From assembly GCA_002712305.1 (NCBI GenBank), contig PATE01000045.1:41368-74354 (forward strand): a stretch of 32,987 nt of DNA, read 5' to 3'. Positions 34 to 14,391 of this stretch are shown piece by piece. Source of the stretch: Gemmatimonadota bacterium (lineage in GTDB: Bacteria > Latescibacterota > UBA2968 > UBA8231). The notes beneath the pieces were generated by a model that was given only the letters and a program-made list of their open reading frames with translations, was not told the DNA's origin and searched no databases. Position 1 is the stretch's first letter, and each line of letters starts with the position of its first letter. The translations under genes were made by a program, and so were the position numbers.

Positions 34-63
34 TTGACACATGCGACAGGTCCCGGTTATCTA
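34..63 (+). promoter_or_regulatory. Predicted sigma70-type promoter for cytochrome c gene
   Basis: A perfect -35 hexamer TTGACA (34-39) is followed after 18 bases by TATCTA (58-63), which keeps the first three bases of the -10 consensus. Transcription would begin near 70. This argues that the cytochrome starts at 118 or 124 and not at the TTG that overlaps the -35 element. Seen in sequence; activity is inferred. Confidence 0.45.
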
Positions 64-117
64 CGAAAGATGATCGTCCTGACAAACCTCACGATGCCAC
101 GCCGACTAGCCTGCGGG

Positions 118-870
118 ATGACGATGATCCGCACAAGCGCTCTGTTGCTCACCATCCTGGCCCTTTCTGCTCCCGACGCGGTCCTCGCTCAAAAAGGTGC
201 TCGCGGCACAGCCGCCGAGGGCCGAGTGCTTTTTCATTCTCCGGCACTGAGCACCAATGGCCTGGCGTGTATCAACTGCCACAGTGATTTCGACGAGCAA
301 CGCGAACCAGATGGTCTGATGAGGGCAGGGCATCCTCTCTACAATGCAACCCAGCGCGCCACATTCTGGGGGCAGCAGGAAAACGATCCGGATCGATATC
401 AGAGCATCGGTGACGCCGCCGTCGTCTGCGTGGAACACTTCATGAAGAACCCGGACAAGCTAACGGCTCGTCAGGTCGAATCCTTGAGCGAATACCTCAA
501 GTTCAAAAGCCCTCGCCCGCTCACCGACGCCCTGGCCTTGACTGCAGCAGCCGACAAGACCGGCCAGTATCTGGGGCATGACGGGGGGGACCGAATCCGC
601 GGCCGAGAGTTGTTCTATTCTGCCTGCCACGTGTGCCACCCCAATGCCAACGGCGGAATCGGCGTGCCGATTCCGAGAGACAAGGACCCCGCCTTCTATG
701 CCCGCAAAGTGCGCGAGGGAGACGGACTGGGGGCGGTACTGAGCGGTCTCGATGCCAATGCCTTTGCTCTGTCCGCGGGTAACTTCATGCCCTTCTTCGG
801 TGCAGATAGACTCTCCAAGTCCGAACTGCGCGACATCATCGCTTACCTTCGCAGCCTCCCCGCCCAGTAG
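118..870 (+). CDS. Diheme c-type cytochrome, exported
   Basis: Periplasmic electron-transfer protein of about 250 residues. A signal peptide (MTMIRTSALLLTILALSAP, cleavage near AVLAQ) is followed by two c-type heme sites: CINCH at about residues 51-55 and CHVCH at about 170-174, both CxxCH. A Met-containing stretch near the C terminus (NFMPFF) could supply an axial heme ligand, and the end (ELRDIIAYLRSL) matches the last helix of small cytochromes c. The frame stays open upstream to a TTG at 34, but that would put about 28 non-signal residues before the signal peptide and overlaps a promoter, so ATG 118 (or 124) is preferred. The neighbour converges on it after 21 bases, so it is probably a single-gene transcript. 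Its redox partner cannot be told from the sequence. Confidence 0.85.
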   Translation: MTMIRTSALLLTILALSAPDAVLAQKGARGTAAEGRVLFHSPALSTNGLACINCHSDFDEQREPDGLMRAGHPLYNATQRATFWGQQENDPDRYQSIGDAAVVCVEHFMKNPDKLTARQVESLSEYLKFKSPRPLTDALALTAAADKTGQYLGHDGGDRIRGRELFYSACHVCHPNANGGIGVPIPRDKDPAFYARKVREGDGLGAVLSGLDANAFALSAGNFMPFFGADRLSKSELRDIIAYLRSLPAQ

Positions 871-891: not shown

Positions 892-1638
892 CTACACAGG
901 CCGCGACCTTTCAAGCAGGGGCGCACAGGTCTGGCAGGCTTGGTCGTATTCCTCGACGGAATCGATTTCTGCCCATGGCAGATCCGTCACATCTGCGATT
1001 GACAACCGTCTTTGCTCCACCAGCGGGCCGTAGGCTGCCGTGGGAAACGTGTCGAGTGTATCGTTGGCCACCATGCGCTCGACTTCCTCACGCACCAAGT
1101 CGCCGTCGGAGGGCTTGAGGAGGATGATCTGGGCACTGACTGCCTGCGTCGTGAGAGGATCGAGCTGTTTGCTGATGGCCTCCACACGCTCCTCTGAATC
1201 GAGACGGATGTTCATCTCACCTGCCAGTCGCGGCCGCTGCGTGTCAGCGGCGATGCAGGACCCACCCATCTGCGTCATTCGGTGAGGCAGTCGTGCATCG
1301 AAGAGGATGTCGCAGTTGCACAGGAATGTCCCTTGTCGCCCCCAGTCACCGAGCGTCAGGTAGAGGGAGTAGATGGAGTTGGTCGATTCCCAGCGCTCGT
1401 TGTTCACATATGTGACGTCCAAGCCATATCGGCTCCCGTCCCCGCAGTGCTCCCGGACCATGTGCTCGAGATACCCGACCACGAGGCAGACCCGGGTTAC
1501 ACCCGCCTCTGCCAGCGAATGGATCTGGTGGTCGAGGAGGGTGCCCGTCGCACCGATCGCCACCAGGCACTTTGGGCATTGGGCGGTGAGAGGGCGCAGG
1601 CGGGTACCGGCGCCAGCAGCGAGAATGACGGCATCCAT
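892..1638 (-). CDS. Sugar/alcohol-phosphate nucleotidyltransferase (LicC-like)
   Basis: A 248-residue NTP-transferase-fold enzyme that would activate a phosphorylated alcohol or sugar with an NTP. The N terminus carries the nucleotide-binding signature LAAGAGTRLRPLT followed by PKCLV. A region reading ESTNSIYSLYLT resembles the substrate loop of choline- and inositol-phosphate cytidylyltransferases, and CNCDILF occupies the place of the usual metal-binding GD/GDN site. It starts at ATG 1638 with no strong ribosome site visible. It diverges from the operon at 1968, whose first gene is a paralogue, so both probably serve the same lipid headgroup pathway. Family assignment is firm. The substrate, and CTP as donor, are inferred from the adjacent CDP-alcohol phosphatidyltransferase. 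Confidence 0.85.
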   Translation of the reverse strand: MDAVILAAGAGTRLRPLTAQCPKCLVAIGATGTLLDHQIHSLAEAGVTRVCLVVGYLEHMVREHCGDGSRYGLDVTYVNNERWESTNSIYSLYLTLGDWGRQGTFLCNCDILFDARLPHRMTQMGGSCIAADTQRPRLAGEMNIRLDSEERVEAISKQLDPLTTQAVSAQIILLKPSDGDLVREEVERMVANDTLDTFPTAAYGPLVEQRRLSIADVTDLPWAEIDSVEEYDQACQTCAPLLERSRPV

Positions 1639-1754
1639 GAAATCGACTCGAGGATTTGGGTTGGCCGGATGTGCGACCGGCGATCAAATATAGGACCCGA
1701 CCACCCACGACGCCCAGCAGCCGTTTTGGGGTGTGTCAAACATGTCCTATCTCG

Positions 1755-1783
1755 TTGACCACACGTAGGTTAATGGCTATCTT
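1755..1783 (+). promoter_or_regulatory. Predicted sigma70-type promoter of the lipid operon
   Basis: TTGACC (1755-1760, 5 of 6 consensus) is separated by exactly 17 bases from TATCTT (1778-1783, 4 of 6). It lies upstream of the seven-gene operon beginning at 1968 and gives a leader of about 175 bases that includes the hairpin at 1802-1843. Confidence 0.6.
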
Positions 1784-1801
1784 AAATTAGTTGCCTCGTG
1801 G

Positions 1802-1843
1802 GTGCCTTCGGCCTGAGTCCATGACCAGCCGGAGGCCCTTTTT
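1802..1843 (+). terminator. Terminator-like hairpin in operon leader (possible attenuator)
   Basis: The arms GTGCCTTCGGC and GCCGGAGGCCC pair over 10 of 11 positions (one GU, one mismatch), with a loop of about 14 bases and a run of five T directly after. This is the form of an intrinsic terminator. It sits only about 20 bases after the predicted transcription start and before any gene, so it cannot end an upstream plus-strand gene transcribed from this promoter. Attenuation or a short leader RNA are possible roles; both are inferred. Confidence 0.5.
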
Positions 1844-1967
1844 CCGTACGTGTAACTGCATGATGCCGGCGAGCATCGGGCATCGACCATCCGAAGGTGG
1901 ATGATTCCATCAAGCCCTGCCGCCAACCCCCACACCGATCGATGCCCTTGCGTCCCGAGTCCTCCCG

Positions 1968-2735
1968 TTGAAAGCCCTGATTCTGGCCGCCGGACGTGGC
2001 CGACGCTTGTGGCCCTATACCCGGCAGACGCCCAAGTGCCTGCTGACGATCGAACCCCAGGTATCGATCCTGCAGCGTCAGATCTCACTGCTGAGTGCCG
2101 CGGGCGTCGATCGTATCGTCGTCGTGGCGGGGTTTGGCTTCGAGCAAGTGCGCGCCTCGACCGCCGGTGATTCCCATGTGAGGGTGATGTACAATCCATT
2201 CTACGCCGTCGCCGACAATCTCATCAGTCTTTGGGCCGCCCGGGCCGAGATGGACGACGATCTTCTCATCGTCAATGGTGACAACGTCTTCCACCCGGAC
2301 ATGCTGACGTATCTGCTGCAACCTGTCGCTTCGAACTGCCAGTTGCTTGTTCAGAGAAAGCCACGGTATGACGACGACGACATGAAGGTGACGATTCGTG
2401 CAGGGTCGTTGCAGGCGATCGGCAAGGAACTGCCCGCCGAGTGTATCGATGCCGCGTCGGTGGGACTGCTGGGTTTCAGGGGAGCGGGCGTGGGGCAACT
2501 GCACGAGATCCTCGAGGAAGCGGTGCAGGTCGAGGGTGCCATGAGCAGCTACTATCTCGACGGCATCCAGCGCCTTGCCCAGGGCGGGATCAGCATTCAG
2601 TGTGTGGATTCGGAGCAGGTGCCCTGGGCCGATATCGACACGCCCCAGGATCTGGCAAAGGTTCGCGAGCAACTCGATCGTTTTGGCTCGCACGGAAGCC
2701 TCACCCAACCCTCTGCTGCACCGAGGCTCGCATGA
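1968..2735 (+). CDS. Nucleotidyltransferase, first gene of lipid operon
   Basis: A 255-residue NTP transferase that activates an alcohol- or sugar-phosphate, probably as its CDP derivative. The signature LAAGRGRRLWPYT followed by PKCLL is at residues 5-25. ADNLISLWAAR matches the substrate-loop region of LicC-like cytidylyltransferases, and VNGDNVFH holds the metal-binding aspartate. Near the C terminus, PWADIDTPQDLAKVRE is typical of the family. Translation starts at TTG 1968, directly before the first conserved strand. Its stop codon overlaps the next gene's ATG (ATGA at 2732-2735), implying translational coupling with the phosphatidyltransferase that would use its product. It is paralogous to the divergent gene at 892-1638. 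The exact alcohol is unknown. Confidence 0.87.
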   Translation: MKALILAAGRGRRLWPYTRQTPKCLLTIEPQVSILQRQISLLSAAGVDRIVVVAGFGFEQVRASTAGDSHVRVMYNPFYAVADNLISLWAARAEMDDDLLIVNGDNVFHPDMLTYLLQPVASNCQLLVQRKPRYDDDDMKVTIRAGSLQAIGKELPAECIDAASVGLLGFRGAGVGQLHEILEEAVQVEGAMSSYYLDGIQRLAQGGISIQCVDSEQVPWADIDTPQDLAKVREQLDRFGSHGSLTQPSAAPRLA

Positions 2736-4144
2736 ATCTGGCGGGCCTTCTTGTCTTCGACGACAGTGATGACGGTCGTCAGATCGCAGAGCGATCCTTC
2801 GGTGGATTGCGCCTTTTGGAGCGTGGGATTCGTACCATGGCCCGTGCCGGGGTGCGGCGCCTGCTCGTGGTGACGGCGCCAGGTACAAGAACGACGGTCG
2901 GCAAGGTGACGGACCGCCTGGATCTCGAGCTTGAATTTGTGGAGTGGGGCACCAAACCGCATATGCGTTTCGGGGCGGGCGAAGACGTTCTGTGCCTGTT
3001 CGGAGACCACGCTCACCATCACACGTCGCTGAGCGACCTTGTCGCCGACGGCACCGGCGCCGACGAGGTGGTGATCCAGGTGGCACCCGCCTCGCAGCAG
3101 ATCGAGCTGCTGGTGGCACAGGTGAGCGACTTGGATGCGGGCCACCAGATGCAGTTGGCATGGGCCCCCGGCCCTGTCGAAGAAGCAAGCACGGGGGCTT
3201 TCCTCGTCGATGGCGCATTGACGCCCCATGAAATCTCAACCTCCGGTGCCCCTCTGATTGACTTCCTGAGGGTCCGCAGTGCCGGATGGGCGTTGCGAAC
3301 CAAGGCCGGCGAGGCCCACCTGTGGCGGCGCGTCATCGATCGCCGCACGGCCCGCGCCGCCCGAGCCATGCTCTTTGGCCAGGTGACGAAAGCCACCAGT
3401 GGCCCGATTTCCCGGCATCTGAATGCTCGCATGTCGATCCCGATCAGCAAGCTTCTGATCGAGACGGGCATCTCTCCACACATGGTCACCGTACTGTTTG
3501 TGATGTCCACCGGACTGACCGCAGCCTATCTGATGTCACATCCCATGCCACACTGGCGCCTGGCCCTCGCCGGATTCCTGTGGCAGATGGCAGCCGTCCT
3601 CGACCGCTGTGATGGCGAAATCGCCCGTGTGAAACTGTGTGAATCACAGTTTGGCGCCTGGTTCGATACCGTGACTGACAATATCGCCTACCTGAGTGCC
3701 TACGTGGCCTTCCTCGTTGCAGTGACCAAGCTGCATCCGGATCAGCCCTTGTTCCTTTACGCAGGCTACTCCGCCATTCTGGCCATGCTGCTGAGTCTGG
3801 GCATCATGTACCACTACGCATTGAAGACGGGCAATGGTTCCCTGCAGAAATACCTTGTGGGATATGCGGCACTACCGCCCGAACAGAAGGGCGTACTGTA
3901 TCGGCTTCTCGAACGTTATTCGTTCGTGGCGAAGCGAGATTTCTTCGCCTTCGTCCACTTCGTCTTTGCCATCCTCAATCAGTTTGACATGATCTATCTG
4001 TACACTGTGGGTGGTCTGCATCTGATGACATTGGGTGTCGTGATCTCCCAGCGAAAGATGCTGACCTACCACGCAGAGAATGGCTCGATGGAGCCCTCGC
4101 CTGGGCAGTCTGCGACGGGCGCCGCGGCGCAGGATTCCCGATGA
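2732..4144 (+). CDS. CDP-alcohol phosphatidyltransferase with degenerate NTase-like N-terminal domain
   Basis: A 470-residue membrane enzyme that transfers a phospho-alcohol from a CDP-alcohol to an acceptor. The CDP-alcohol transferase signature DG-x2-AR-x8-G-x3-D-x3-D is complete at residues 294-316, preceded by the segment SIPISKLLIETGISPHMVT, which is typical of the di-myo-inositol-phosphate-phosphate synthase branch, and followed by several membrane helices. The N-terminal 230 or so residues have the layout of a nucleotidyltransferase (a domain that is fused and active in IPCT/DIPPS enzymes), but the GxGxR loop is replaced by FDDSDDGRQ, so it is probably inactive for nucleotide transfer. 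ATG 2732 overlaps the previous stop. An open frame to 2441 lies inside the previous gene and is rejected. Product identity is inferred, not shown. Confidence 0.88.
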   Translation: MNLAGLLVFDDSDDGRQIAERSFGGLRLLERGIRTMARAGVRRLLVVTAPGTRTTVGKVTDRLDLELEFVEWGTKPHMRFGAGEDVLCLFGDHAHHHTSLSDLVADGTGADEVVIQVAPASQQIELLVAQVSDLDAGHQMQLAWAPGPVEEASTGAFLVDGALTPHEISTSGAPLIDFLRVRSAGWALRTKAGEAHLWRRVIDRRTARAARAMLFGQVTKATSGPISRHLNARMSIPISKLLIETGISPHMVTVLFVMSTGLTAAYLMSHPMPHWRLALAGFLWQMAAVLDRCDGEIARVKLCESQFGAWFDTVTDNIAYLSAYVAFLVAVTKLHPDQPLFLYAGYSAILAMLLSLGIMYHYALKTGNGSLQKYLVGYAALPPEQKGVLYRLLERYSFVAKRDFFAFVHFVFAILNQFDMIYLYTVGGLHLMTLGVVISQRKMLTYHAENGSMEPSPGQSATGAAAQDSR

Positions 4145-4169
4145 AGAGCTCACGGATGAAGAGTTGACG

Positions 4170-5213
4170 GTGAAGATTCTCCGGTTCCTGCTTCCCGGGC
4201 TTGGCCTTCTGCTGCTCGGTTATCTCATCGGTACCCTGGGATTGGGCGAGATCCTGTCTAACCTTGCCGTGATGAAATGGGCCTTCCCCCTCGTGCTGCT
4301 GCTGGCCACCGGCTGGCATGTGACCAATTCCATCGCATGGTCCTTCGCCTTTCCGTCAGGCGCCTTCCGGCCAGGCCTGCTGACACTGATTCGGGCGAAA
4401 CTGGCCGGCGAAGCAGTCAATCAATTGACGCCCCTGGCCAATCTCGGAGGCGAACCGCTCAAGGCCTTTCTCCTGCGCCATCAATCCCCCACGTCACGTG
4501 GCCTGGCATCCGTCGTGATCAACAAGACGGGTCAGGTGTTCACGGGACTCGCTTTTACGGCGATTGGGCTGTTGTTGGTGGTGCTTCACTGGGAGTTGCC
4601 GCAGGCCTTGCCCGTCCCCGTGCAGGGCGGATTGCTGGCTCTCTTCTGTTTTGCCGCGCTGTTGCTGGTACTGATGGTGCGCAAGCAGCGGCACATGTTC
4701 ACATCATTGCTGAACTTCCTCAAGCGCTTTGGCCTGCATCTGGAGGCCCTCGAGAGCCGGATGGCCAAGGCCGTCCGCATCGACGAGAACATCTCCCGCT
4801 TCTATCGAGAATCAAAGGGCCGCTTCTGTCTGGTCATGCTGTTTCACGCCGCCGGCTGGATGTTGGGCGCGTGCGAAACCTTTGTGATCCTTCGTGCGCT
4901 GGGTGCGCCGATCGCCTTCGATGTGGCGTTCTTGATCACGGCGCTGACCCTGCTGATCAACAGTCTGTTTTTTTTCATGCCGTCAAACATCGGCGTGCTG
5001 GAAGGCGGTCAGGTATTTCTCTTCCTGACCCTGGGACTCGACCCGGCGATGGGCCTGTCTCTCGGTATCATCAAGCGCATGCGCAAGATCTTCTGGATCG
5101 GCCTGGGTTGGCTCTTTCTCGCCCAGCTGAGTCGTTCGTTTCACTCGATGACCGCCTTCCCATCGACAGATGACTCGACCATGGGTGTCGTCTCCCGCGG
5201 GGAAGCCTCGTGA
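4170..5213 (+). CDS. UPF0104/HpnL-like integral membrane protein (lipid flippase-type)
   Basis: About 347 residues with seven to eight hydrophobic helices. It carries hallmarks of the lysylphosphatidylglycerol-synthase transmembrane family (UPF0104, including HpnL): a conserved segment reading NQLTPLANLGGEPLKAF, and MPSNIGVLEGG before the last helices. Members are implicated in lipid flipping or lipid modification. No aminoacyl-transferase domain is attached. GTG 4170 is chosen because GAAGAG (4158-4163) stands six bases before it and the protein then begins with its first helix. The frame is open back to ATG 4080, which would overlap the previous gene by 65 bases and add Arg-rich sequence. 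Its place between a phosphatidyltransferase and export genes suggests it moves the new lipid across the inner membrane (inference). Confidence 0.8.
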   Translation: MKILRFLLPGLGLLLLGYLIGTLGLGEILSNLAVMKWAFPLVLLLATGWHVTNSIAWSFAFPSGAFRPGLLTLIRAKLAGEAVNQLTPLANLGGEPLKAFLLRHQSPTSRGLASVVINKTGQVFTGLAFTAIGLLLVVLHWELPQALPVPVQGGLLALFCFAALLLVLMVRKQRHMFTSLLNFLKRFGLHLEALESRMAKAVRIDENISRFYRESKGRFCLVMLFHAAGWMLGACETFVILRALGAPIAFDVAFLITALTLLINSLFFFMPSNIGVLEGGQVFLFLTLGLDPAMGLSLGIIKRMRKIFWIGLGWLFLAQLSRSFHSMTAFPSTDDSTMGVVSRGEAS

Positions 5214-6559
5214 TGCCGCGCATCTGGTGGCGGAGGCCGATGTATAGCCTGCTGACCGGCACATTGCTGTTGTGCGCCGCAACGTCGCAGGCCGAACCCG
5301 CGACGTACGATCTGCCGACGCTCATCGACCGCGCCCTGGAGCACAACGCCGAGATCCTGGAGAGTCGTGCCAAAGTCGCCGAAGCACGTGCGACACAGCG
5401 TCAAGCGCGCGGAGCCTTTGTCCTTCCCCGTCTGCGCCTGGAGAGTTATGGTGGCCTCACGCCAGATGCGAAAGGCGACGTGTTCAACCCTCCTTCGGAT
5501 ACATCGGGTGTTCGCGCTCTGGGCCCCTTCGCCCGTGCTCAACTCGAATTTATCCAACCCCTGTATACCTTCGGCCGGCTGACCCATCTGCACAGAGCAG
5601 CTGAGGCGGGGGTTTCCGCCCAGCAGGCGCAACTTGCCGATTCACGAGGTGAAATCATTCACCAGGTGAAGGAGCTGTACTACGGAATCCTCCTTGCTCA
5701 GGATCTGACCAGCCTGGCGCGGCGTCTGAGAGACGAACTCGCCACCTGGGAGGATGAAGTGACCCTCGATAACCCTGACATCCCCGTATCAGCGCCGTAC
5801 AAACTGCAACTGGCCCTGCTTGAGTTGGAGAACCGATCGGCTCAGTTGGAGGATGGACTCCGCTTCGCGCGATCTGCCCTGGCCTGGAAAACGGGGCTTT
5901 CGGAAGCGGACGACTTCGTCCTCGCCGACGAGTTGTCCCCCACCGATACCGCCCTTCCCTCGATCGAGGAACTTCACTCGCGAGGTCTACAGCAGCGGCC
6001 CGAGTGGCGCCACCTGCAGGCAGGACTGGCGGCGCGCCATGCCCAGGAACAGGCAGCGCGTAGCGCCTACTATCCGCAGGTGTTCCTCAGCGGCGGGATT
6101 CGGTATGCCGTGGCGCCGGGGCGAACCGATCAGCACAACCCGTTCGTCAAAGACGAGTTCAATCTCTTCAACGGTGGCGTCTTTCTCGGGCTGCGTCAGT
6201 CCTTCGAGTGGGACATGCTCGGTGCCGATCTCGACAAAGCCCGCGCCAAGAGGCTCCAACTCGAGGCGCTGCAGACCACGGCGGCCCAGGGGATTCGTGT
6301 GGATATCCGTCGTGCCTACGACGAATACCACGCCTCCACACGAGAGGTGGCCACCGCACTCAAGGCCCGCAATCTGACCCGGGAGTGGCTGCAATTGGCG
6401 CAGGACGAATACGAGTTGGAACCCGGATCCGTGAAGGAACTCGTGAGTGCCTTCGAGGCCTTGGCGGCCTCCGAGGAGTCCTACTACCGCGCCCTGCATC
6501 GGGATCATCTTGCCCTCGCCGAGTTGGAGCGTGCTATCGGAGGACCGGTGAATCCATGA
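5213..6559 (+). CDS. TolC-family outer-membrane efflux channel
   Basis: About 448 residues with a signal peptide ending near ATSQAEP and then two repeats of the outer-membrane efflux protein fold. Markers are TYDLPTLIDRALEHNAEI at the N terminus, the strand-turn FIQPLYTFGRL in the first half and LRQSFEWDMLGADLDKARAKRLQ at the equivalent position in the second, with long amphipathic helices after each. Such proteins form trimeric channels across the outer membrane and periplasm. Start codons GTG 5210 and ATG 5213 overlap the stop of the previous gene. A GGGGAAG ribosome site just upstream suits ATG 5213. No membrane-fusion adaptor gene is present in the cluster. The RND protein four genes on is not of the tripartite drug-efflux type, so the usual partner is missing. 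Confidence 0.87.
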   Translation: MPRIWWRRPMYSLLTGTLLLCAATSQAEPATYDLPTLIDRALEHNAEILESRAKVAEARATQRQARGAFVLPRLRLESYGGLTPDAKGDVFNPPSDTSGVRALGPFARAQLEFIQPLYTFGRLTHLHRAAEAGVSAQQAQLADSRGEIIHQVKELYYGILLAQDLTSLARRLRDELATWEDEVTLDNPDIPVSAPYKLQLALLELENRSAQLEDGLRFARSALAWKTGLSEADDFVLADELSPTDTALPSIEELHSRGLQQRPEWRHLQAGLAARHAQEQAARSAYYPQVFLSGGIRYAVAPGRTDQHNPFVKDEFNLFNGGVFLGLRQSFEWDMLGADLDKARAKRLQLEALQTTAAQGIRVDIRRAYDEYHASTREVATALKARNLTREWLQLAQDEYELEPGSVKELVSAFEALAASEESYYRALHRDHLALAELERAIGGPVNP

Positions 6560-7902
6560 ACGGCTACCGGATCATGACAAGATGTGCTGCAGTTGCAGTC
6601 CTGATACTGGGTTGGGCTTCGTCCTCTCTGGCAAGCCGCGCCGACGGACACACGTGGTTCGTGGAGCAACTGACGCACCTGAACGAAGCTCGCGCCCAGT
6701 CGAATCCCCAATCGCTGGCCGTAGATCTGGTGGAACGCCTGGTTCGGGTTGATCGCTTCTCACAGCGCGCTTTCGACGACTACCTCGAACGCAGCCTCGA
6801 AGACTATGAGCAGTTCCTGGCGCCGGAGGAATTGCTCCATCTCGTCGAACAACACCGCCTCCAGCTTCACGATGCCATCCGTACACGACTGATCGCTGAC
6901 CTTAACGGTTGGCTGGGCGGAGACGAGGGTCGTGAGTGGCAATTGGTGGACGCGAAATTCGACAAGGGCACAGGGCATGTGACCGTGTCGGCCGATACTC
7001 ACGCCGTCACACTGTATCTGCGTCGACAAGATGGGCAGTGGTCGGTCACCGACGCAGGTACCCAGCAGATCAGACTCAGCGATCACTATCGCCGACTCGT
7101 GGCTGACATTCTCGACAGCGACTATTCACTGGCCGTGTTGAAGGCACGACTGAAGGAGCGCCATGACGTCGTGATCGAGGATTTCTCCCGTTCCAGGCCT
7201 GGCGTTCTGCCCGAGGGCTGGGGGTGGCGTCGCAAGCGTGACGATCGCAAGGCGAAGTTGTATCGCGTTCAGGAAACGGCGAACAAGCGATATCTTGCGG
7301 CCCAGGACACAGGCGCATCGGTCATTCTGCTGAAGTGGTCGCACTGGAATCCACACGAGCATCCCATTATGACCTGGTGCTGGAGGGCCGATGCCCTGCC
7401 ACCGGGCGGCGATGAGCGCTTCAGTCACACCAATGACAGCGCCGCCGGCATCTACGTGATCTACAGCCAGAACTGGCTCGGTCTTCCAAAACAGATCAAG
7501 TATGTGTGGAGTACCACCCTCCCAGAGGGTACCGTCGACCGCCGGGACATGATTGCCCGCCCTTATTTCTTCGTCCTGGAGAGTGGCGAAAAACACAAGG
7601 GTGAGTGGGTCTTCGAAATGACGGATGTTGTGAAGGACTATGAGAGGGTTTTCGGATCATCTCCGAAGGATCGTACATTGGGGATTGGACTGCTCACCGA
7701 TGCAAACTCCACCGACTCCTATGCTGCGGCCTACTACGCAGACATCCGCGTATGGCCTCGTGAAGCGCGAGAGGATGGGCAGATCACCGACTACTGTGGA
7801 GATCTGCGGGAACCGGCCACGGGGCATGGCGGTCAAAGCCGCACCACATTTGCGGTCAACTCCACTGAAGCCGGCGCTGCAGCGAAGGCGGCGGGAGAAT
7901 GA
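6556..7902 (+). CDS. MlaC-like plus DUF3047 fusion, exported
   Basis: A 448-residue secreted protein. A signal peptide (residues 1-26, ending SSLASRA) is followed by a helix-rich region at about 30-200 whose pattern (LVERLVRVDRFSQRAFDDYL, a middle of charged helices, then a beta section) resembles the MlaC/Tgt2 lipid-carrier domain. From about residue 206 to 405 comes a DUF3047 domain: IEDFSRSRPGVLPEGW at its start, the tryptophan-rich core MTWCWRADALPPGGDE, and YYADIRVW at its end. ATG 6556 overlaps the previous stop (ATGA), and its own stop overlaps the next gene in the same way. DUF3047 has no assigned function that I know of. The MlaC resemblance is judged by eye and is weaker than for the next gene. 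A periplasmic lipid-handling role is inferred from context. Confidence 0.75.
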   Translation: MNGYRIMTRCAAVAVLILGWASSSLASRADGHTWFVEQLTHLNEARAQSNPQSLAVDLVERLVRVDRFSQRAFDDYLERSLEDYEQFLAPEELLHLVEQHRLQLHDAIRTRLIADLNGWLGGDEGREWQLVDAKFDKGTGHVTVSADTHAVTLYLRRQDGQWSVTDAGTQQIRLSDHYRRLVADILDSDYSLAVLKARLKERHDVVIEDFSRSRPGVLPEGWGWRRKRDDRKAKLYRVQETANKRYLAAQDTGASVILLKWSHWNPHEHPIMTWCWRADALPPGGDERFSHTNDSAAGIYVIYSQNWLGLPKQIKYVWSTTLPEGTVDRRDMIARPYFFVLESGEKHKGEWVFEMTDVVKDYERVFGSSPKDRTLGIGLLTDANSTDSYAAAYYADIRVWPREAREDGQITDYCGDLREPATGHGGQSRTTFAVNSTEAGAAAKAAGE

Positions 7903-8525
7903 AGATGAAACCGATACCGACAGTCGTGATGATCTTTGCCGTAACACTCGCCTTCGCCGAAGAAGGTGACACGGCGGCTTTCTCGGCGCCCACGGCCTAC
8001 CTGAAACAACTGGATTCAAACGTGCAGGCCATTGTCCGAGCCGACGGAGCTGACACCCTTTCGGCGCAGGAAAACGCCCAGGTCCGTACACTGATCAATG
8101 GTGCCTTCGACTTTGAAGAGCTGAGCCGACTTTCCCTCGGCGATCACTGGAATGAGCGCACAGCCCAGGAGCGCGACGAATTTGTCAGGATCTACCAGGG
8201 GATCATCGAACGGCGCAACTTCGACATCTTCGTCCAATACTATCGAGAGGGCGAGATCAACTATGTCGACGAGGCCATCGATGAGGGCGGCCGGGCTCGC
8301 GTCGAGGCCCAGGTGCCGATGAAACGAGAGACCAAACAGATCGTCTACGCCCTTCACCAGCCAGCGGGCCAGGACTGGCGGATCTACGATCTATCCATCG
8401 ATGGAGCCAGCACCGTCACCGGGAATCGCCGAACCTATGGCCGCTACATCGCTCGCCACTCCTTCGACAAGCTGATGGAGCGCCTGCGCGCTCAACTGTC
8501 GGCGCTACAGCAAACCGACGAATAG
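7899..8525 (+). CDS. MlaC/Tgt2-family periplasmic lipid-binding protein (HpnM-like)
   Basis: A 208-residue exported protein with a short signal peptide ending near AFAEE. It carries the family's core motif: FDFEELSRLSLGDHW at about residues 67-81, then TAQERDEFVRIYQGIIERR. A beta-rich section (ARVEAQVPMK, WRIYDLSIDGAS) and a final helix follow. MlaC proteins shuttle single phospholipids between inner-membrane and outer-membrane complexes; the related HpnM belongs to hopanoid export loci. ATG 7899 overlaps the previous stop by four bases. No MlaD, MlaE or MlaF gene is nearby. The next gene is an RND transporter, as with HpnM and HpnN, so this carrier probably accepts lipid from or hands it to that transporter (inference). 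Confidence 0.88.
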   Translation: MKMKPIPTVVMIFAVTLAFAEEGDTAAFSAPTAYLKQLDSNVQAIVRADGADTLSAQENAQVRTLINGAFDFEELSRLSLGDHWNERTAQERDEFVRIYQGIIERRNFDIFVQYYREGEINYVDEAIDEGGRARVEAQVPMKRETKQIVYALHQPAGQDWRIYDLSIDGASTVTGNRRTYGRYIARHSFDKLMERLRAQLSALQQTDE

Positions 8526-8547
8526 CCCTTCAGGTATCTGACCCTAC

Positions 8548-10926
8548 ATGCGCAGCTACGAACGAATCGTCCACTACGTCTTCCACCATCACATCAGCAT
8601 TATTCTGGTGTCGCTGGTGCTGTCGATCGTGGCGGGTTCGTTCGCGGCCCAACTGAAGATCAAGGCAGACTCGGCGAATCTGCTCCCTGACGACTATGTC
8701 AGCGTCCGCGAATTGAATCGGATCAAGGAACGCGTCGGAGGGATTGGACCACTGATGGTCATCGTCAGTGGTGACGACCTGGCTGCCTGCGTCGACTTCA
8801 TGCATGCCCTGGCCGACTCTCTCGACGGCAGTCCCCTGATCAGCTCCGTGATCCGCGGCCGCACAGCGGAGATGGAGTTTCTCAGCAAGAATCGGCTCCT
8901 CTACATGGATCTGGAGGATCTTCAGGAACTCCATCAGCGAGTTGCCGACAAGATCGAGCTGGAGACGTTGAAAAAGAACCCCTTCTACATGGGGTTCGAA
9001 GAGGAAGAGGAAGATCCCCTCGACGTCAGTGACATCGAGGCCAAATACGAACACTACGAGCTGAGTGGGTACGATCGAGACTACTACCTGACCGAGGAGG
9101 GCACTGGCGTCATCCTCCGATTGTATCCCACGGGGGTCATTACCGACTCCAAGTTCACCAAGAAGCTGCTCGGACAGCTCGACCAAACCATCGAAGCTCT
9201 CGATGCGAAACGTTATCACCCCAGCCTCGAGGTGATCTACAAGGGCAGCTTCAAGAATGCATCGACCCAGTATACGGTCGTGCTCCAGGATCTGAAGTCG
9301 ACGGCCCTGTATGCACTCTTCGGGGTCATCGTTCTGATCAGTCTCTACTTCCGACGCCTTCTGTCGCCGCTGTTTATCGTCTTTCCGCTGTTAATGAGCC
9401 TGTCCTGGACTTTCGGCGTCACCTTTTTCGTCATCGGCAACCTGAATCAGATTACCGTCTGTCTCTTCGCCATCCTCTTCGGGCTGGGCATCGACTTCGG
9501 GATCCACATCTTCGCCCGATACCGCGAGGCTCGGCGGCGGGGCATGGATATTGAGCAGGCTCTGGTGGAAACCGTCTGCCACACGGGCAGTGCGCTGACG
9601 ACGACGGCACTGACAACGGCGGTGGCCTTCTTCTCGCTCTTATTCTCTGACTTCAAGGGATTCAGCGAGTTTGGGTTCATCGTCGGCACAGGCATCCTCT
9701 TCTCTCTGGTTGCCATGGTGGTCGTTTGTCCTGCGTTCATCGTGTTGGCCGAACGACTAACCCTCATTCGGTTTCAGCAGGCCAGCGTTCCAGAGCATCT
9801 CATCCGGCGTGGGCGTTACCCGGTGCCCCATCTCACCCTGTTGCTGGGTGTGCTCGCAACCGCCTACTCCCTCTACCACATCAGCGACCTTCGTTTTGAG
9901 TGGGACTTCAGGAAGCTGAAACCGGAGGTCGAGACGACGGGCCCGGAGGCGAGCCTCCCCGACAAGTTGAAGGAGACACGCTCACCGGCAATTGTGCTGA
10001 CGGAGAGTCGCGCCGAGGCGATGGCCGTCGTGGCTGAAGTCGAACGAATCCGGACCGAACGCGGCGACAGTTCCACCGTGTTGTCCGTGCAAAGCGTCTA
10101 CTCCTTCCTGCCTGCCGACCAAGAACAGAAGCTTGACCTGATCACCGATCTGCAGACGATGATCGATACCAACATTGAGTTGCTGGACCAGAAGGATCGA
10201 AGTCGTGTCGATTCATTGCGCCAATACTTCGATGTCCAGGAGTTGGCCCTGACGGATCTGCCGAGGGAAATGACCAAGAGTTTCTCGAGCAAGGAAGGCG
10301 AAATCCTGAACTTCGTGCAGATCAACGCCTCCGTGCCGCTGCGCGATGGTCGCAACTCTATCAACTTTGCCCGTGAGGTGAAGGTCATCGAGACCGAACT
10401 GGGCACGTTCTACGCCTCCAGTTCCCACATCATCTTTGCGGAGATGCTGGAACTGATGCTCGACGACGCCGTCATCGCCGTCATCGTCACACTCCTGGTA
10501 GTGGGCGTCGTGCTGGTCATCGACCTGGGTAGCATTTTGAGCGCCGCTCTCGTGCTCACTCCCCTGCTGACAGCACTGGCGTGGGTGACGGGGCTGATGT
10601 ATGTGCTCGACTTCCGCATCAACATCTACAACATGGTCGCCTTCCCCACGATCATCGGCATGGGGATCGACAATGCCGTCCACATCTTTCATCGATATCG
10701 CGAAGCTGGCGTGGGATCTCTTCGATTGGTCATGCGCACGACGGGAATGGCCTTGCTGGCCACGACGCTGACAACGATGGTGGGCTTCGCGGGACTGGTC
10801 CCCGCCCATCACCCGGCACTGTATTGGATCGGCACCGTATCTCTACTGGGATTGGGATGCGCTTTCATCACCGCCGTGTCTCTGCTGCCTGCATTGCTAC
10901 AGTTGATCGAGAGACGTTCGGATTAG
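8548..10926 (+). CDS. RND/MMPL-family lipid transporter (HpnN-like)
   Basis: A 792-residue inner-membrane protein with the duplicated RND layout: one helix near residue 15, a periplasmic domain (about 40-255), five helices, a second helix and periplasmic domain, then five more helices. The two halves carry matching motifs, GLGIDFGIHIFARYREA near residue 312 and GMGIDNAVHIFHRYREA near 704, each followed by a TTLTT-type turn (ALTTTALTTAVAF and LLATTLTTMVGF). These fit proton-driven HpnN/MMPL-type lipid exporters rather than AcrB-type drug pumps, which are about 1,000 residues. It ends the operon, 22 bases after the MlaC gene. Substrate is inferred from context as the lipid made by the upstream enzymes. 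Confidence 0.88.
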   Translation: MRSYERIVHYVFHHHISIILVSLVLSIVAGSFAAQLKIKADSANLLPDDYVSVRELNRIKERVGGIGPLMVIVSGDDLAACVDFMHALADSLDGSPLISSVIRGRTAEMEFLSKNRLLYMDLEDLQELHQRVADKIELETLKKNPFYMGFEEEEEDPLDVSDIEAKYEHYELSGYDRDYYLTEEGTGVILRLYPTGVITDSKFTKKLLGQLDQTIEALDAKRYHPSLEVIYKGSFKNASTQYTVVLQDLKSTALYALFGVIVLISLYFRRLLSPLFIVFPLLMSLSWTFGVTFFVIGNLNQITVCLFAILFGLGIDFGIHIFARYREARRRGMDIEQALVETVCHTGSALTTTALTTAVAFFSLLFSDFKGFSEFGFIVGTGILFSLVAMVVVCPAFIVLAERLTLIRFQQASVPEHLIRRGRYPVPHLTLLLGVLATAYSLYHISDLRFEWDFRKLKPEVETTGPEASLPDKLKETRSPAIVLTESRAEAMAVVAEVERIRTERGDSSTVLSVQSVYSFLPADQEQKLDLITDLQTMIDTNIELLDQKDRSRVDSLRQYFDVQELALTDLPREMTKSFSSKEGEILNFVQINASVPLRDGRNSINFAREVKVIETELGTFYASSSHIIFAEMLELMLDDAVIAVIVTLLVVGVVLVIDLGSILSAALVLTPLLTALAWVTGLMYVLDFRINIYNMVAFPTIIGMGIDNAVHIFHRYREAGVGSLRLVMRTTGMALLATTLTTMVGFAGLVPAHHPALYWIGTVSLLGLGCAFITAVSLLPALLQLIERRSD

Positions 10927-11034: not shown

Positions 11035-11051
11035 GATATGACGCCGAGAAA

Positions 11052-11127
11052 TGGAGCGGGAGACGAGACTCGAACTCGCGACAACCACGTTGGCAACGTG
11101 GGGCTCTACCAACTGAGCTACTCCCGC
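11052..11127 (-). tRNA. tRNA-Gly (anticodon GCC)
   Basis: The reverse complement folds as a full 76-base tRNA. The acceptor arms GCGGGAG and CTCCCGC are perfectly paired. The D arm reads TAGCTCAGTTGGTAGAGC, the anticodon stem-loop CCACG-TTGCCAA-CGTGG has anticodon GCC, and the T arm contains GTTCGAGTC. Discriminator base T is followed by an encoded CCA. It is flanked by its own promoter and terminator and points away from the lipoprotein gene at 11152. Confidence 0.96.
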
Positions 11128-11142
11128 TTGGAGCAGAAATGG

Positions 11143-11171
11143 AATATAGAGGTGGCCAAAAATAGCGTCAA
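11143..11171 (-). promoter_or_regulatory. Predicted promoter of tRNA-Gly
   Basis: On the minus strand TTGACG (complement of 11166-11171) is followed after exactly 17 bases by TATATT (complement of 11143-11148). The -10 ends 15 bases before the mature tRNA 5' end. The -35 box lies within the first codons of the divergently read lipoprotein gene. Confidence 0.65.
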
Positions 11172-14100
11172 GATGATCGTCCTGTTCGCTGCCCTGATTT
11201 CAGTGGTCCTGACGGGATGCTCAGACTCGTATCAGACCGATCTGTCGCAGTCCCAGACCCGATCCCGGTGGCACAACAGCCAGGGCGTCGTCTACATGGA
11301 TCAGCACAACTACACGGCAGGTCGCAGTCAGTTCGAGAAGGCCCTGGCCTTGGACTCTCTGTTCCCTACAGCTCATGCAAATCTGGGAATTGCCCTCTAC
11401 AGCCTTGGGAAATTCGACAGCGCACGCGCCGAGCTGGTCGCCTGTCTCGCACTGAACCCGAAGCATCTGCACGCCAACTATACCCTTGGCCTGATCGACC
11501 TCGCTGGAGGCGACAACTACGAACGGGCGCTGGCCTCATTCCAACAGGTCGCCGATATCGATGGCGACGACCCTCTCGTCCAGTATCACCTCGGACGGAC
11601 CTTGGCGAAACTGGGTCGTTCAGACGATGCTCTGGCCGCCTATGGCAGGGCGATTGAGCTGGATGAGAATCTTCTGTCCGCCCACTACGCCAGAGCACAC
11701 GAGTTGCGTCAGTTGGGCCGGACCGAAGACTGGCGGCAGGCTCTGTCCGTCTTCGACCGGCTGTCGAAGGCTGGGTTTGAGGGTGTGAGCACGACCTACC
11801 AGGGCCAGGGGAAGTACGCGGAGGCTCGTGTGGAGGGACACTTCGGATCGGGCGGTGATGATCGAATGTCGCCGATTCACCTAGCTGATCCTGTTCCGAT
11901 CACGGGCTTGCACAGGGCCCACGTGGCGGTGGACACCGATGGCGACGGATTGGCAGAGTTGATCGGCCCCTCCCCAGATGGGAATACGCTGCAGATCCTC
12001 GCGAAGCAGTCCAATGGGTGGACCGCGGCATCGTCGTGGTACGTGCCGCCAGGCATCCAGGCACACACGACACTGATCGGTGATATCGATGATGACGGCG
12101 ATCTGGACCTGCTCGTCTCAAGCGGCCAACTCGGTTCTGATCCGACAAACAAGCTGTTGCGCCAGCAGAACGGCCGGTTCGTGGCCGAGGCCCTCGGCTT
12201 GGAAGGCAGCGCCCACGCCCTGGGAGATATCGACCACGACGGTGACTACGATGTGGTGAGCTTCTCATCGGGACTGCGTCTGGCCTCAGGGAACGGCACC
12301 GGAGGCTTTTCGGACATCACAGATGAGGCCCTTGGCTTGGAGTTTCTGTCCCCAAGTCGCGCCGTGTTCACCGATACCGACAACGATCGGGACGTGGACC
12401 TGATCGCCGCCGGTTCGAGGATGGCCCTGTTCTCCAACAATCGGGACGGCACGCTCACAGATCTGGCCACCGAACGACAACTCACACAACTCGACAGCGC
12501 CCTCGATCTGGCCGTCTTCGATCTGCTTCCCGACGGGCACCTCGATGTGGTTGGCCTGGGGCCAGATGCGCTGCAGGTGGCCAGCAATGACGCGGGGAGA
12601 GGGTATTCGATCCATCAGCAGATGCCGGTGGAGGACGCACACACGGTGAGGGTTGCTGATCTCGACAACGATGGCGATCTCGACCTGGTTCTGGGAGGAG
12701 ACGACCAGGTCCAGATCGTGTTGTCGTCGGCGGGGCAACTGCAAGCGCCGCAGCCCATCGCGACAGGTAGGCCTGCATCAACGGTGGTCGTCAACGACCT
12801 GGATGGCGACGGGCGAATCGACATCGTGGCCGGCAACCAGGTGCTGATGAACGAGACTAAGAACCTCGGACACTGGGTCAATATCAGCCTGTCGGGCCTC
12901 AACAGTGTCGCCGACGGAGTGGGCTCAAAAGTCGAGATCCATACCTCGACGACGCAGCAGAAACGTGAGGTTCGAGCCGGTGCGGGTGACGGGAGGACTC
13001 TGCACGTCGGGATCGGGTCCGCCGATTCGGTGGAGTTCATTCGGATCCTATGGCCCAGCGGCGTTCGCCAGGCTGAACTGGCAACGGCGGCAGACCAGAT
13101 GCTGCACTTTGAGGAACTGAATCGAAAGGGCACATCCTGCCCGATCCTGTATGCGTGGGATGGGACCGACTACCGATTCGTCTCCGACTTCCTCGGTGGG
13201 GCCATCATCGGGTATCTGACCGAGCCGGGCCAATACTACCCGCCAGACACCGATGAATACGTGCGTATCCCGCATCTGCAACCACGCCAGGGTCGCTACG
13301 AACTCCAGATCGGCAACCAGCTGGAAGAGATTCTCTATCTGGACGCAGCCGAGCTTGTGGCCGTCGATCATCCAATAGGGACAACGCTGTTCCCGAACGA
13401 GCGACTGCTTTCATCTCCCCCTTACCCGTCGCACCAACCCTATGCGTTGGCAGATCTGCGCCCGCCACAGAGGGTGACAGATCACGCTGGACGGGACGTG
13501 ACGTCAGCCCTGGTGGCCGTCGATGACGAATGGTATACGGACTTTGATCATCGCCCGATCCACGGTTATGCGGCGCCCTACAGCCTTACATTGGATCTTG
13601 GAGATCTGAGTTCGTGGGAGCACCCGGTCCTCGTCGCCCACGGGTGGGTCGACTATGCGCATTCCACGAGCAACTGGGCCGCCTCACAGCGAGAGCTCTC
13701 GCTGTTCCCGCCACGTCTGGAAGTCGAGGATGCAAACGGCACATGGCGACTGATCACGACAGACATGGGCACCCCTGCTGGTCTGCCCAAGGACATGGTC
13801 TTCGATCTGTCCGACGCCCTGACAGAGGACGTCGATCGTGTGCGCCTTCGGATCACAACATCCATGTCCATCTACTGGGACCAGTTCCAGGTCGGCCGCT
13901 CCGTCGGACAATACAGCGTGCAGCGAGCGCGATTCGACGAAGCGGACCTGCATTGGCGGGGCTATCCGGTCCATGAATCGATCCATGGCACCTTCGCCTT
14001 CCGCTACGATCATTCGCAGGTAAACACAGAGGCGCCTTGGGGAACACACGCAGGAGCATACACGCGATTCGGCGACGTGAGCGAACTCACCGATCAGATC

Positions 14101-14391
14101 GACGATCGGTTCGCCATCATGTTTCACGGGGATGAGCTGACATTGACCGTCGGCGCGGACAATTTTGGCCCGGTCCGGGAAGGATGGACGCGCTCTTTCC
14201 TGTTCTATGCGGATGGATTCGGCAAGGATATGGACTTTCACTCGGCCCATTCTCTGACAGTGGAGCCTCTTCCCTTTCACGGGATGAGTCGGTATCCATA
14301 CGGCCCAGATGAAACCTATCCACAGTCACCGGAGCATGTCAGCTATCGCCTCGACTACAACACACGCAGAATCAAGGGATTCTACGAGTAG
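11152..14391 (+). CDS. TPR / FG-GAP / ASPIC-UnbV lipoprotein
   Basis: About 1,079 residues. A lipoprotein signal with lipobox LTGC puts the lipidated cysteine at residue 23. Tetratricopeptide repeats cover about 40-215 (for example AHANLGIALYSLGKFDSARAE). A seven-bladed-type FG-GAP/VCBS region (about 245-565) follows, with calcium-loop motifs DTDGDGLAEL, DIDDDGDLDLL, DIDHDGDYDVV, DLDNDGDLDLV and DLDGDGRIDIV. An ASPIC/UnbV domain spans about 573-650 (ADGVGSKVEI, LWPSGVRQ), then a long beta-rich C-terminal region begins near GTSCPILYAWDG. Such proteins are envelope-anchored or surface scaffolds of unknown ligand. GTG 11152 gives a positively charged n-region; ATG 11173 is the alternative. An open frame to 11038 runs through the tRNA gene and is rejected. 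No own promoter is evident. Confidence 0.85.
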   Translation: MAKNSVKMIVLFAALISVVLTGCSDSYQTDLSQSQTRSRWHNSQGVVYMDQHNYTAGRSQFEKALALDSLFPTAHANLGIALYSLGKFDSARAELVACLALNPKHLHANYTLGLIDLAGGDNYERALASFQQVADIDGDDPLVQYHLGRTLAKLGRSDDALAAYGRAIELDENLLSAHYARAHELRQLGRTEDWRQALSVFDRLSKAGFEGVSTTYQGQGKYAEARVEGHFGSGGDDRMSPIHLADPVPITGLHRAHVAVDTDGDGLAELIGPSPDGNTLQILAKQSNGWTAASSWYVPPGIQAHTTLIGDIDDDGDLDLLVSSGQLGSDPTNKLLRQQNGRFVAEALGLEGSAHALGDIDHDGDYDVVSFSSGLRLASGNGTGGFSDITDEALGLEFLSPSRAVFTDTDNDRDVDLIAAGSRMALFSNNRDGTLTDLATERQLTQLDSALDLAVFDLLPDGHLDVVGLGPDALQVASNDAGRGYSIHQQMPVEDAHTVRVADLDNDGDLDLVLGGDDQVQIVLSSAGQLQAPQPIATGRPASTVVVNDLDGDGRIDIVAGNQVLMNETKNLGHWVNISLSGLNSVADGVGSKVEIHTSTTQQKREVRAGAGDGRTLHVGIGSADSVEFIRILWPSGVRQAELATAADQMLHFEELNRKGTSCPILYAWDGTDYRFVSDFLGGAIIGYLTEPGQYYPPDTDEYVRIPHLQPRQGRYELQIGNQLEEILYLDAAELVAVDHPIGTTLFPNERLLSSPPYPSHQPYALADLRPPQRVTDHAGRDVTSALVAVDDEWYTDFDHRPIHGYAAPYSLTLDLGDLSSWEHPVLVAHGWVDYAHSTSNWAASQRELSLFPPRLEVEDANGTWRLITTDMGTPAGLPKDMVFDLSDALTEDVDRVRLRITTSMSIYWDQFQVGRSVGQYSVQRARFDEADLHWRGYPVHESIHGTFAFRYDHSQVNTEAPWGTHAGAYTRFGDVSELTDQIDDRFAIMFHGDELTLTVGADNFGPVREGWTRSFLFYADGFGKDMDFHSAHSLTVEPLPFHGMSRYPYGPDETYPQSPEHVSYRLDYNTRRIKGFYE

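Follow-up and report, generated by a model that had tools for sequence, protein, structure and literature searches.

How do bacteria with an outer membrane live without lipopolysaccharide (LPS), the lipid that this membrane usually contains in Gram-negative cells; which lipid do they place at their surface, and how is it delivered there? A gene cluster in a metagenome-assembled genome of the Latescibacterota addresses these open questions. It lies in a stretch of 32,987 nucleotides (GCA_002712305.1, contig PATE01000045.1, positions 41,368–74,354 of the forward strand), here called the window, and comprises an operon of seven plus-strand genes (1968–10926) and a nucleotidyltransferase gene, NTPa, that diverges from it (Table 1). 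The operon encodes a second nucleotidyltransferase (NTPb), a cytidine diphosphate (CDP)-alcohol phosphotransferase (the transferase), an HpnL-like membrane protein, a TolC-like channel protein, a fusion of an MlaC-fold domain with DUF3047, an MlaC-family carrier and an HpnN-like RND transporter. We judge the chances to be about even that this operon is the core envelope-lipid system of an LPS-less class of Latescibacterota, making a phospho-polyol (glyco)lipid for export to the outer membrane, where it may substitute for LPS. The gene set, its folds and motifs, its conservation and coupling, and the absence of lpxC and lpxB with bamA kept are read from sequence or predicted structure.

We compared 64 genomes of the phylum, 47 of them species-level genomes of the class (families f1–f4) and 17 from elsewhere in the phylum. 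LpxC is found in none of the 47 class genomes, against 16 of the 17 others, and LpxB in none of the 47, against 11 of the 17; these absences include four single-contig genomes (G018, G024, G027 and G030). Omp85 is present in all 64 genomes, thus in all 47 of the class, and LptF/G in 45 of the 47, so that by gene content the cells of the class are diderm. In two LPS-bearing relatives (L188 and L191) the gene order is clpC, bamA, skp, lpxD, an lpxC/fabZ fusion, the lpxA region (which gave no model match), a Gfo/Idh gene and lpxB. In three class members (L186, L189 and L190) clpC, bamA and skp are followed by a stand-alone fabZ, with no lpx genes at the locus, and in the genome of the window (L184) a fabZ reading frame, read by eye, directly follows skp. 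As far as its genes tell, the class is an LPS-less diderm lineage, which has kept outer-membrane assembly genes and lost LpxC and LpxB. LptF and LptG may move another lipid in the class, as in the Thermus, Deinobacterium and Thermotoga controls. The Pfam model of LptD was rejected as a marker of LPS, being uninformative: most members of the phylum that do bear LPS also gave no match. A single-cell study of 2015 reported LPS genes in its Latescibacteria (PMC4454575), cells that may or may not belong to this class. We found no description of LPS loss in Latescibacterota, or of this operon, in the open-access literature. The class-wide absence of lipid A genes is new here; a preliminary description of the window had missed it, and it changes the significance of the operon.

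The transferase is encoded in all 47 class genomes and the HpnN-like RND protein in 46. In 32 of the 47 the two genes are at most 5 kb apart, across two gene arrangements, and in two further class genomes (G005 and G028) the cluster is cut off by contig ends. The gene order of the window recurs in genera of its own family, where both the cluster and NTPa are found in g1, g3, g4, g5 and g6; the DUF3047 protein of g4 is without the MlaC-like half. Two other families have, with local variation, the usual order HpnL, TolC, a fusion of nucleotidyltransferase and CDP-alcohol transferase, MlaC and RND. Since the order recurs in the own-family genera and a rearranged version is found in these two families, the gene set is, by comparison of the sequences, far beyond chance. 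Fisher tests on the co-distribution serve as description and no more, since these genomes are related through one shared history. DUF3047 alone was rejected as a marker of the cluster; it is widespread in the class and hence not specific. This natural clade of 47 species-level genomes, with its lipid A genes gone and one synthesis and export gene set nearly universal, offers a direct way to test for a replacement lipid and for the machine that transports it.

From these genes we infer the substrate and headgroup, the lipid nature of the product, the direction of its transport and its role as an LPS substitute. NTPb, and probably also NTPa, would charge a phosphorylated polyol with cytidine triphosphate to give a CDP-polyol, and the membrane CDP-alcohol transferase would put the phospho-polyol onto a membrane lipid acceptor. 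The HpnL-like protein would flip the lipid product, which in many lineages is probably glycosylated too, by a neighbouring GT4 enzyme. The HpnN-like RND pump would extract the lipid from the inner membrane and pass it to two MlaC-fold carriers, one of which has a sugar-binding-type jelly roll that may suit a polar headgroup. The carriers would take the lipid across to the outer membrane, where the TolC-like protein would be the partner, and the lipid would probably fill part of the role of LPS. If it does, Lpt and the MCE/AsmA-type systems would be joined by a further pathway through which a surface lipid reaches the outer membrane, and RND pumps and MlaC-type carriers, known mostly from work on hopanoids or phospholipid recycling, would be tied to the export of a dedicated lipid.

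Two MlaC-fold carriers together with an MMPL-type RND protein point to a lipid cargo. The nearest solved relatives of the RND protein are 5khn and HpnN (6wu0), and the MlaC-family protein matches PF05494 with 97.4 bits (gathering score 26). A search of PDB sequences with the DUF3047 fusion returned nothing significant, so its structure was predicted with AlphaFold2 (AF2; mean predicted local distance difference test score, pLDDT, 85.6). The model contains an MlaC-fold domain (residues ~28–202) and the DUF3047 jelly roll (~202–406). The first of these, missed by Pfam and supported by the predicted structure, superposes on Escherichia coli MlaC (7vr6) with a Z score of 15.2 and a root-mean-square deviation of 2.5 over 157 residues. 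The jelly roll has Z scores of 10–14 to sugar-binding jelly rolls, and in structure comparison it resembles carbohydrate-binding modules, the glucuronyl-epimerase beta domain and CFAP20-like proteins. A shared fold does not establish a function, but the pairing in the model of an MlaC fold with a sugar-binding-type fold agrees with a carrier whose lipid has a headgroup that is polar and perhaps glycosylated. The set for tripartite RND efflux is incomplete: a TolC-like protein and an MMPL-type RND protein are present, and no periplasmic adaptor (membrane fusion protein, MFP) is found among the operon genes. An MCE/ABC inner complex and MlaA are absent from the main open reading frames (ORFs) scanned in the window, the rest of the genome not having been searched for them.

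Several own-family genomes (G003:C111, G015:C35, G017:C163, G011:C252, G008:C48 and G014:C123) have, in addition, a full-length HpnN-like RND gene of a more distant kind. Downstream of the RND gene, other Latescibacterota families encode a conserved protein without a Pfam match (motif YTSLWGAFKDSPYE), together with a GMC oxidoreductase and in some cases an oxidoreductase of the Gfo/Idh type (L105:14750-17043, L095:14738-18009 and L055:3697-7029); these proteins may modify the lipid.

Among solved structures NTPa is nearest to MurU and phosphocholine cytidylyltransferase, and NTPb to the phosphocholine cytidylyltransferase LicC (1jyk); inositol-1-phosphate cytidylyltransferases are also among these nearest solved relatives. 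Both proteins retain the nucleotidyltransferase motif GxGxR...PK...D, and R13, K23 and D105 of NTPb, which are conserved in NTPa, correspond to R16, K26 and D112 of IMPCT, as matched by motif and without direct alignment to 4JD0. The D1–D4 motif of the transferase, DxxDGxxARx8GxxxDxxxD, is perfect (DRCDGEIARVKLCESQFGAWFDTVTD) and is invariant or nearly so in 22 relatives. The transferase profile matches Archaeoglobus IPCT-DIPPS over both of its domains (4mnd, E 3e-39). The predicted structure of residues 2–447, an N-terminal nucleotidyltransferase-like domain and a six-helix transferase domain, is closest to AF2299 (Z 27.1), with a Z score of 23.4 to 4mnd. The IPCT-DIPPS equivalog model NF041135, with a cut-off of 580 bits, is reached neither by the transferase (84 bits) nor by NTPb (66 bits). 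The GxGxR...PKP segment of the N-terminal domain is deleted in all nine own-family sequences aligned and is kept in the fused homologues of f3 and f4 and of Myxococcota. In the own family the transferase's N-terminal cytidylyltransferase domain looks dead, and because its motif is lost there, NTPb and NTPa, as separate genes, have probably taken over its activity.

A further CDP-alcohol transferase, whose N-terminal nucleotidyltransferase-like domain is likewise degenerate, is encoded in the genome of the window (L174, G000:C49). Outside the phylum, a DUF4202/HD-like protein is found near the fusion of nucleotidyltransferase and CDP-alcohol transferase in many archaea and bacteria (16 loci, for example L138:2887-3453). 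In the Deltaproteobacteria genome nzgw603 (L104:7326-11338) an RND gene lies directly upstream of such a fusion, a possible independent pairing outside Latescibacterota.

The full-length homology of the transferase to IPCT-DIPPS and its structural closeness to AF2299, neither of which acts on lipids (PMC4634129), speak for a soluble product: di-myo-inositol phosphate or a similar phosphodiester, some other compatible solute, or a small molecule for secretion. The TolC and RND proteins would then export this product or merely adjoin its enzymes. Outside the phylum, many relatives of the fused enzyme are encoded beside inositol-1-phosphate synthase (MIPS), and a TolC channel is able to pass soluble molecules. 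Compatible solutes, however, normally stay inside cells, which we count against such a product. MlaC-fold carriers, a flippase-like protein and a lipid-type RND protein also share the operon with the enzymes and stay linked to them in the second arrangement, and similar enzyme pairs are tied to lipids in Bacteroides (PMC9246714). A soluble product is in our view unlikely, and it keeps some weight.

MIPS is present in all 25 own-family genomes and absent from the other 39 genomes of the phylum, those that carry the fused enzyme among them. Its presence throughout the own family favours an ordinary phosphatidylinositol-like phospholipid, which the operon would balance between the two membranes without LPS being replaced. 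MlaC proteins do handle phospholipids, and the alternate cluster of Bacteroides pairs a nucleotidyltransferase with a CDP-alcohol transferase for inositol lipids (PMC9246714). We rejected MIPS as proof of an inositol substrate: its distribution is confounded with phylogeny, the MIPS gene of the window's genome is not adjacent to the operon, and that genome has a separate PIPS-like enzyme (L172). Inositol is a candidate polyol and not a conclusion, because other families that bear the cluster are without MIPS. Both the PIPS-like enzyme and the families without MIPS also count against a phosphatidylinositol-like product, and the near-universal presence of the system in an LPS-less class, with adjoining glycosyltransferase and Wzx-type genes, suggests a more specialised surface lipid. 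We therefore hold an ordinary phospholipid to be doubtful. The MIPS gene of the window's genome is broken into two frames (L161, G000:C32, ~7514-8828) and intact in relatives, which reflects either an assembly error or real damage.

Genes for GT4 glycosyltransferases adjoin the transferase clusters in g7, f2 and f3, and in g4 and g6 the two nucleotidyltransferase genes have Wzx-type genes between them. Outside the class, clear relatives of the transferase and the RND protein occur in the phylum only in family f7 (2 genomes), which bears LPS; in the f7 genome examined they are unlinked, and the transferase adjoins a GT4 glycosyltransferase and a Wzx-type flippase. Such neighbours would suit a transferase that makes the lipid anchor of a capsule or surface glycan, with the RND, MlaC and TolC proteins exporting that glycolipid, an explanation which overlaps with the phospho-polyol (glyco)lipid that we prefer. 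It is improbable as an explanation of its own, since no polymerase or typical capsule export genes are recognised among the operon genes and no GT4 gene lies beside the operon of the window.

Hopanoid transport, implied by the best NCBIfam names (HpnL, HpnM and HpnN), is scarcely credible and was rejected: all three proteins fall below the cut-offs of the hopanoid families (TIGR03480, HpnN, 294 against 752 bits, E 1.7e-87; TIGR03481, HpnM, 71 against 160; TIGR03476, HpnL, 146 against 196), and a clear match to squalene-hopene cyclase occurs in one of the 47 class genomes and not in that of the window. The gene list of the preliminary description was correct, but its names HpnL and HpnN do not reflect hopanoids; LPG_synthase_TM/flippase-like, MlaC and MMPL/HAE3-type RND are the names that can safely be given on family matches.

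Several points weigh against an operon that makes and exports a lipid in place of LPS. The correlation with loss of LPS is that of one clade, with no independent events, and f7 carries relatives of the transferase and RND protein alongside LPS genes, so that a genome can have them without having lost LPS. LptF/G of the class could carry the replacement lipid instead. The best structural relatives of the transferase, AF2299 and AfDIPPS, are the non-lipid enzymes discussed above (PMC4634129). The lipid is a prediction from the genes of uncultured bacteria. In genus g7 (11 genomes) the cluster is split into transferase-HpnL-DUF3047 and TolC-MlaC/DUF3047-MlaC-RND, and in family f2 the transferase and RND protein are not kept together. 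The preliminary description had named routine splitting of homologous operons as a refutation; the outcome is mixed, for against the splits in g7 and f2 two other families keep the transferase, MlaC and RND genes adjacent in another arrangement, so the coupling is no accident of adjacency. Its proposal of a specialised phospho-alcohol lipid delivered to the outer membrane came through the tests that were run as the best-supported explanation, the lipid itself being a matter of interpretation and a soluble product of the DIPP type its rival. More tentatively, with less than even confidence, we suggest that in a whole diderm class a phospho-polyol (glyco)lipid not described before has taken the place of LPS, through one co-inherited system of transferase, HpnL-like flippase, HpnN-like RND protein and MlaC-fold carriers, the jelly-roll fusion included.

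Relatives of each part are already known, and for the functional idea, that LPS gives way to an anionic lipid derived from a CDP-alcohol, Caulobacter provides one experimental precedent. In Caulobacter crescentus, ceramide diphosphoglycerate (CPG2) supports survival without LPS; its genes encode the cytidylyltransferase CpgD, which is structurally like inositol-1-phosphate cytidylyltransferase, the nucleotidyltransferase CC_1153, the CDP-alcohol-domain enzyme CC_1159, the flippase CC_1166 and LptC2/F2/G2 (PMC12275187, PMC11324152). CPG2 is the nearest known analogue: by described gene content both regions have two nucleotidyltransferases, a CDP-alcohol-domain enzyme and a flippase. The Caulobacter lipid is a ceramide for which a second Lpt set is proposed as transporter, whereas the present operon has an RND protein, two MlaC-fold proteins and a TolC-like protein, and no LptC2/F2/G2 of the Caulobacter type is found among its genes or the other main ORFs of the window.

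The alternate inositol-lipid cluster of Bacteroides and Prevotella encodes MIPS, an NTP transferase, a CDP-alcohol transferase and a HAD hydrolase, and is thought to use CDP-inositol and diacylglycerol (PMC9246714). It shares with the present operon the pair of nucleotidyltransferase and CDP-alcohol transferase; no export genes are reported for it, and the present operon is without HAD phosphatase or MIPS. Archaeoglobus AF2299 and IPCT-DIPPS (AfDIPP synthase) have the same two-domain architecture and fold, the N-terminal domain here being AF2299-like, but they are not reported with export genes, and the IPCT domain that is active in IPCT-DIPPS is degenerate here. The HpnN/HpnM hopanoid and Bst sterol systems also place an MMPL/HAE3-type RND protein beside a protein of the MlaC/HpnM family; unlike them, the present operon includes biosynthetic enzymes, a TolC-like channel and an additional MlaC-fold protein that carries a jelly roll, with no sign of hopanoid synthesis. 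With the Mla system it shares an MlaC-family carrier, to which a second MlaC-fold domain is added, but it has no MlaD/MCE, MlaE/F ABC or MlaA gene, and the RND protein occupies the inner-membrane place. An export set of RND, MlaC and TolC proteins in one such operon, fixed in an LPS-less class, was not found in the open-access papers searched, nor was any system with this exact gene set, of which the preliminary description likewise knew none.

Table 1. Genes of the operon and the divergent nucleotidyltransferase gene, in window coordinates.
Feature	Positions	Strand	Family match or other basis
NTPa, LicC/MurU/cytidylyltransferase-like, active-site motif intact	892–1638	-	PF00483/PF12804
NTPb, first operon gene, probable phospho-polyol cytidylyltransferase	1968–2735	+	PF12804
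CDP-alcohol phosphotransferase with degenerate N-terminal nucleotidyltransferase-like domain (AF2299/IPCT-DIPPS type)	2732–4144	+	PF01066
HpnL-like/LPG_synthase_TM membrane protein, probable lipid flippase	~4170–5213	+	PF03706, E 4e-30; TIGR00374 above cut-off
TolC-like outer membrane channel protein	5210–6559	+	PF02321 (OEP), E 3e-33, two stretches
Predicted periplasmic fusion of MlaC-fold domain and DUF3047 jelly roll	6556–7902	+	PF11249; AF2 model
MlaC-family periplasmic lipid carrier	7899–8525	+	PF05494, E 1e-27
HpnN-like MMPL/HAE3-type RND transporter	8548–10926	+	PF03176, E 2e-38

All eight genes lie where the preliminary description had placed them, with the divergent NTPa and the four overlapping junctions that it had reported. 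These are exact 4-bp overlaps of stop and start codons (ATGA at 2732, GTGA at 5210, ATGA at 6556 and ATGA at 7899). The junction between the transferase and the HpnL-like protein is tight too, the start of the latter being uncertain (in-frame candidates at 4080, 4164 and 4170).

Two neighbours flank the cluster. A cytochrome c gene (34–870, plus strand) adjoins NTPa and is kept beside the cluster in several own-family genera, with no sign of a functional link. A tRNA-Gly(gcc) gene (11052–11127, minus strand) overlaps the start of a 1117-amino-acid TPR/FG-GAP/UnbV ORF (11038–14391, plus strand), whose protein therefore probably begins further downstream than 11038.

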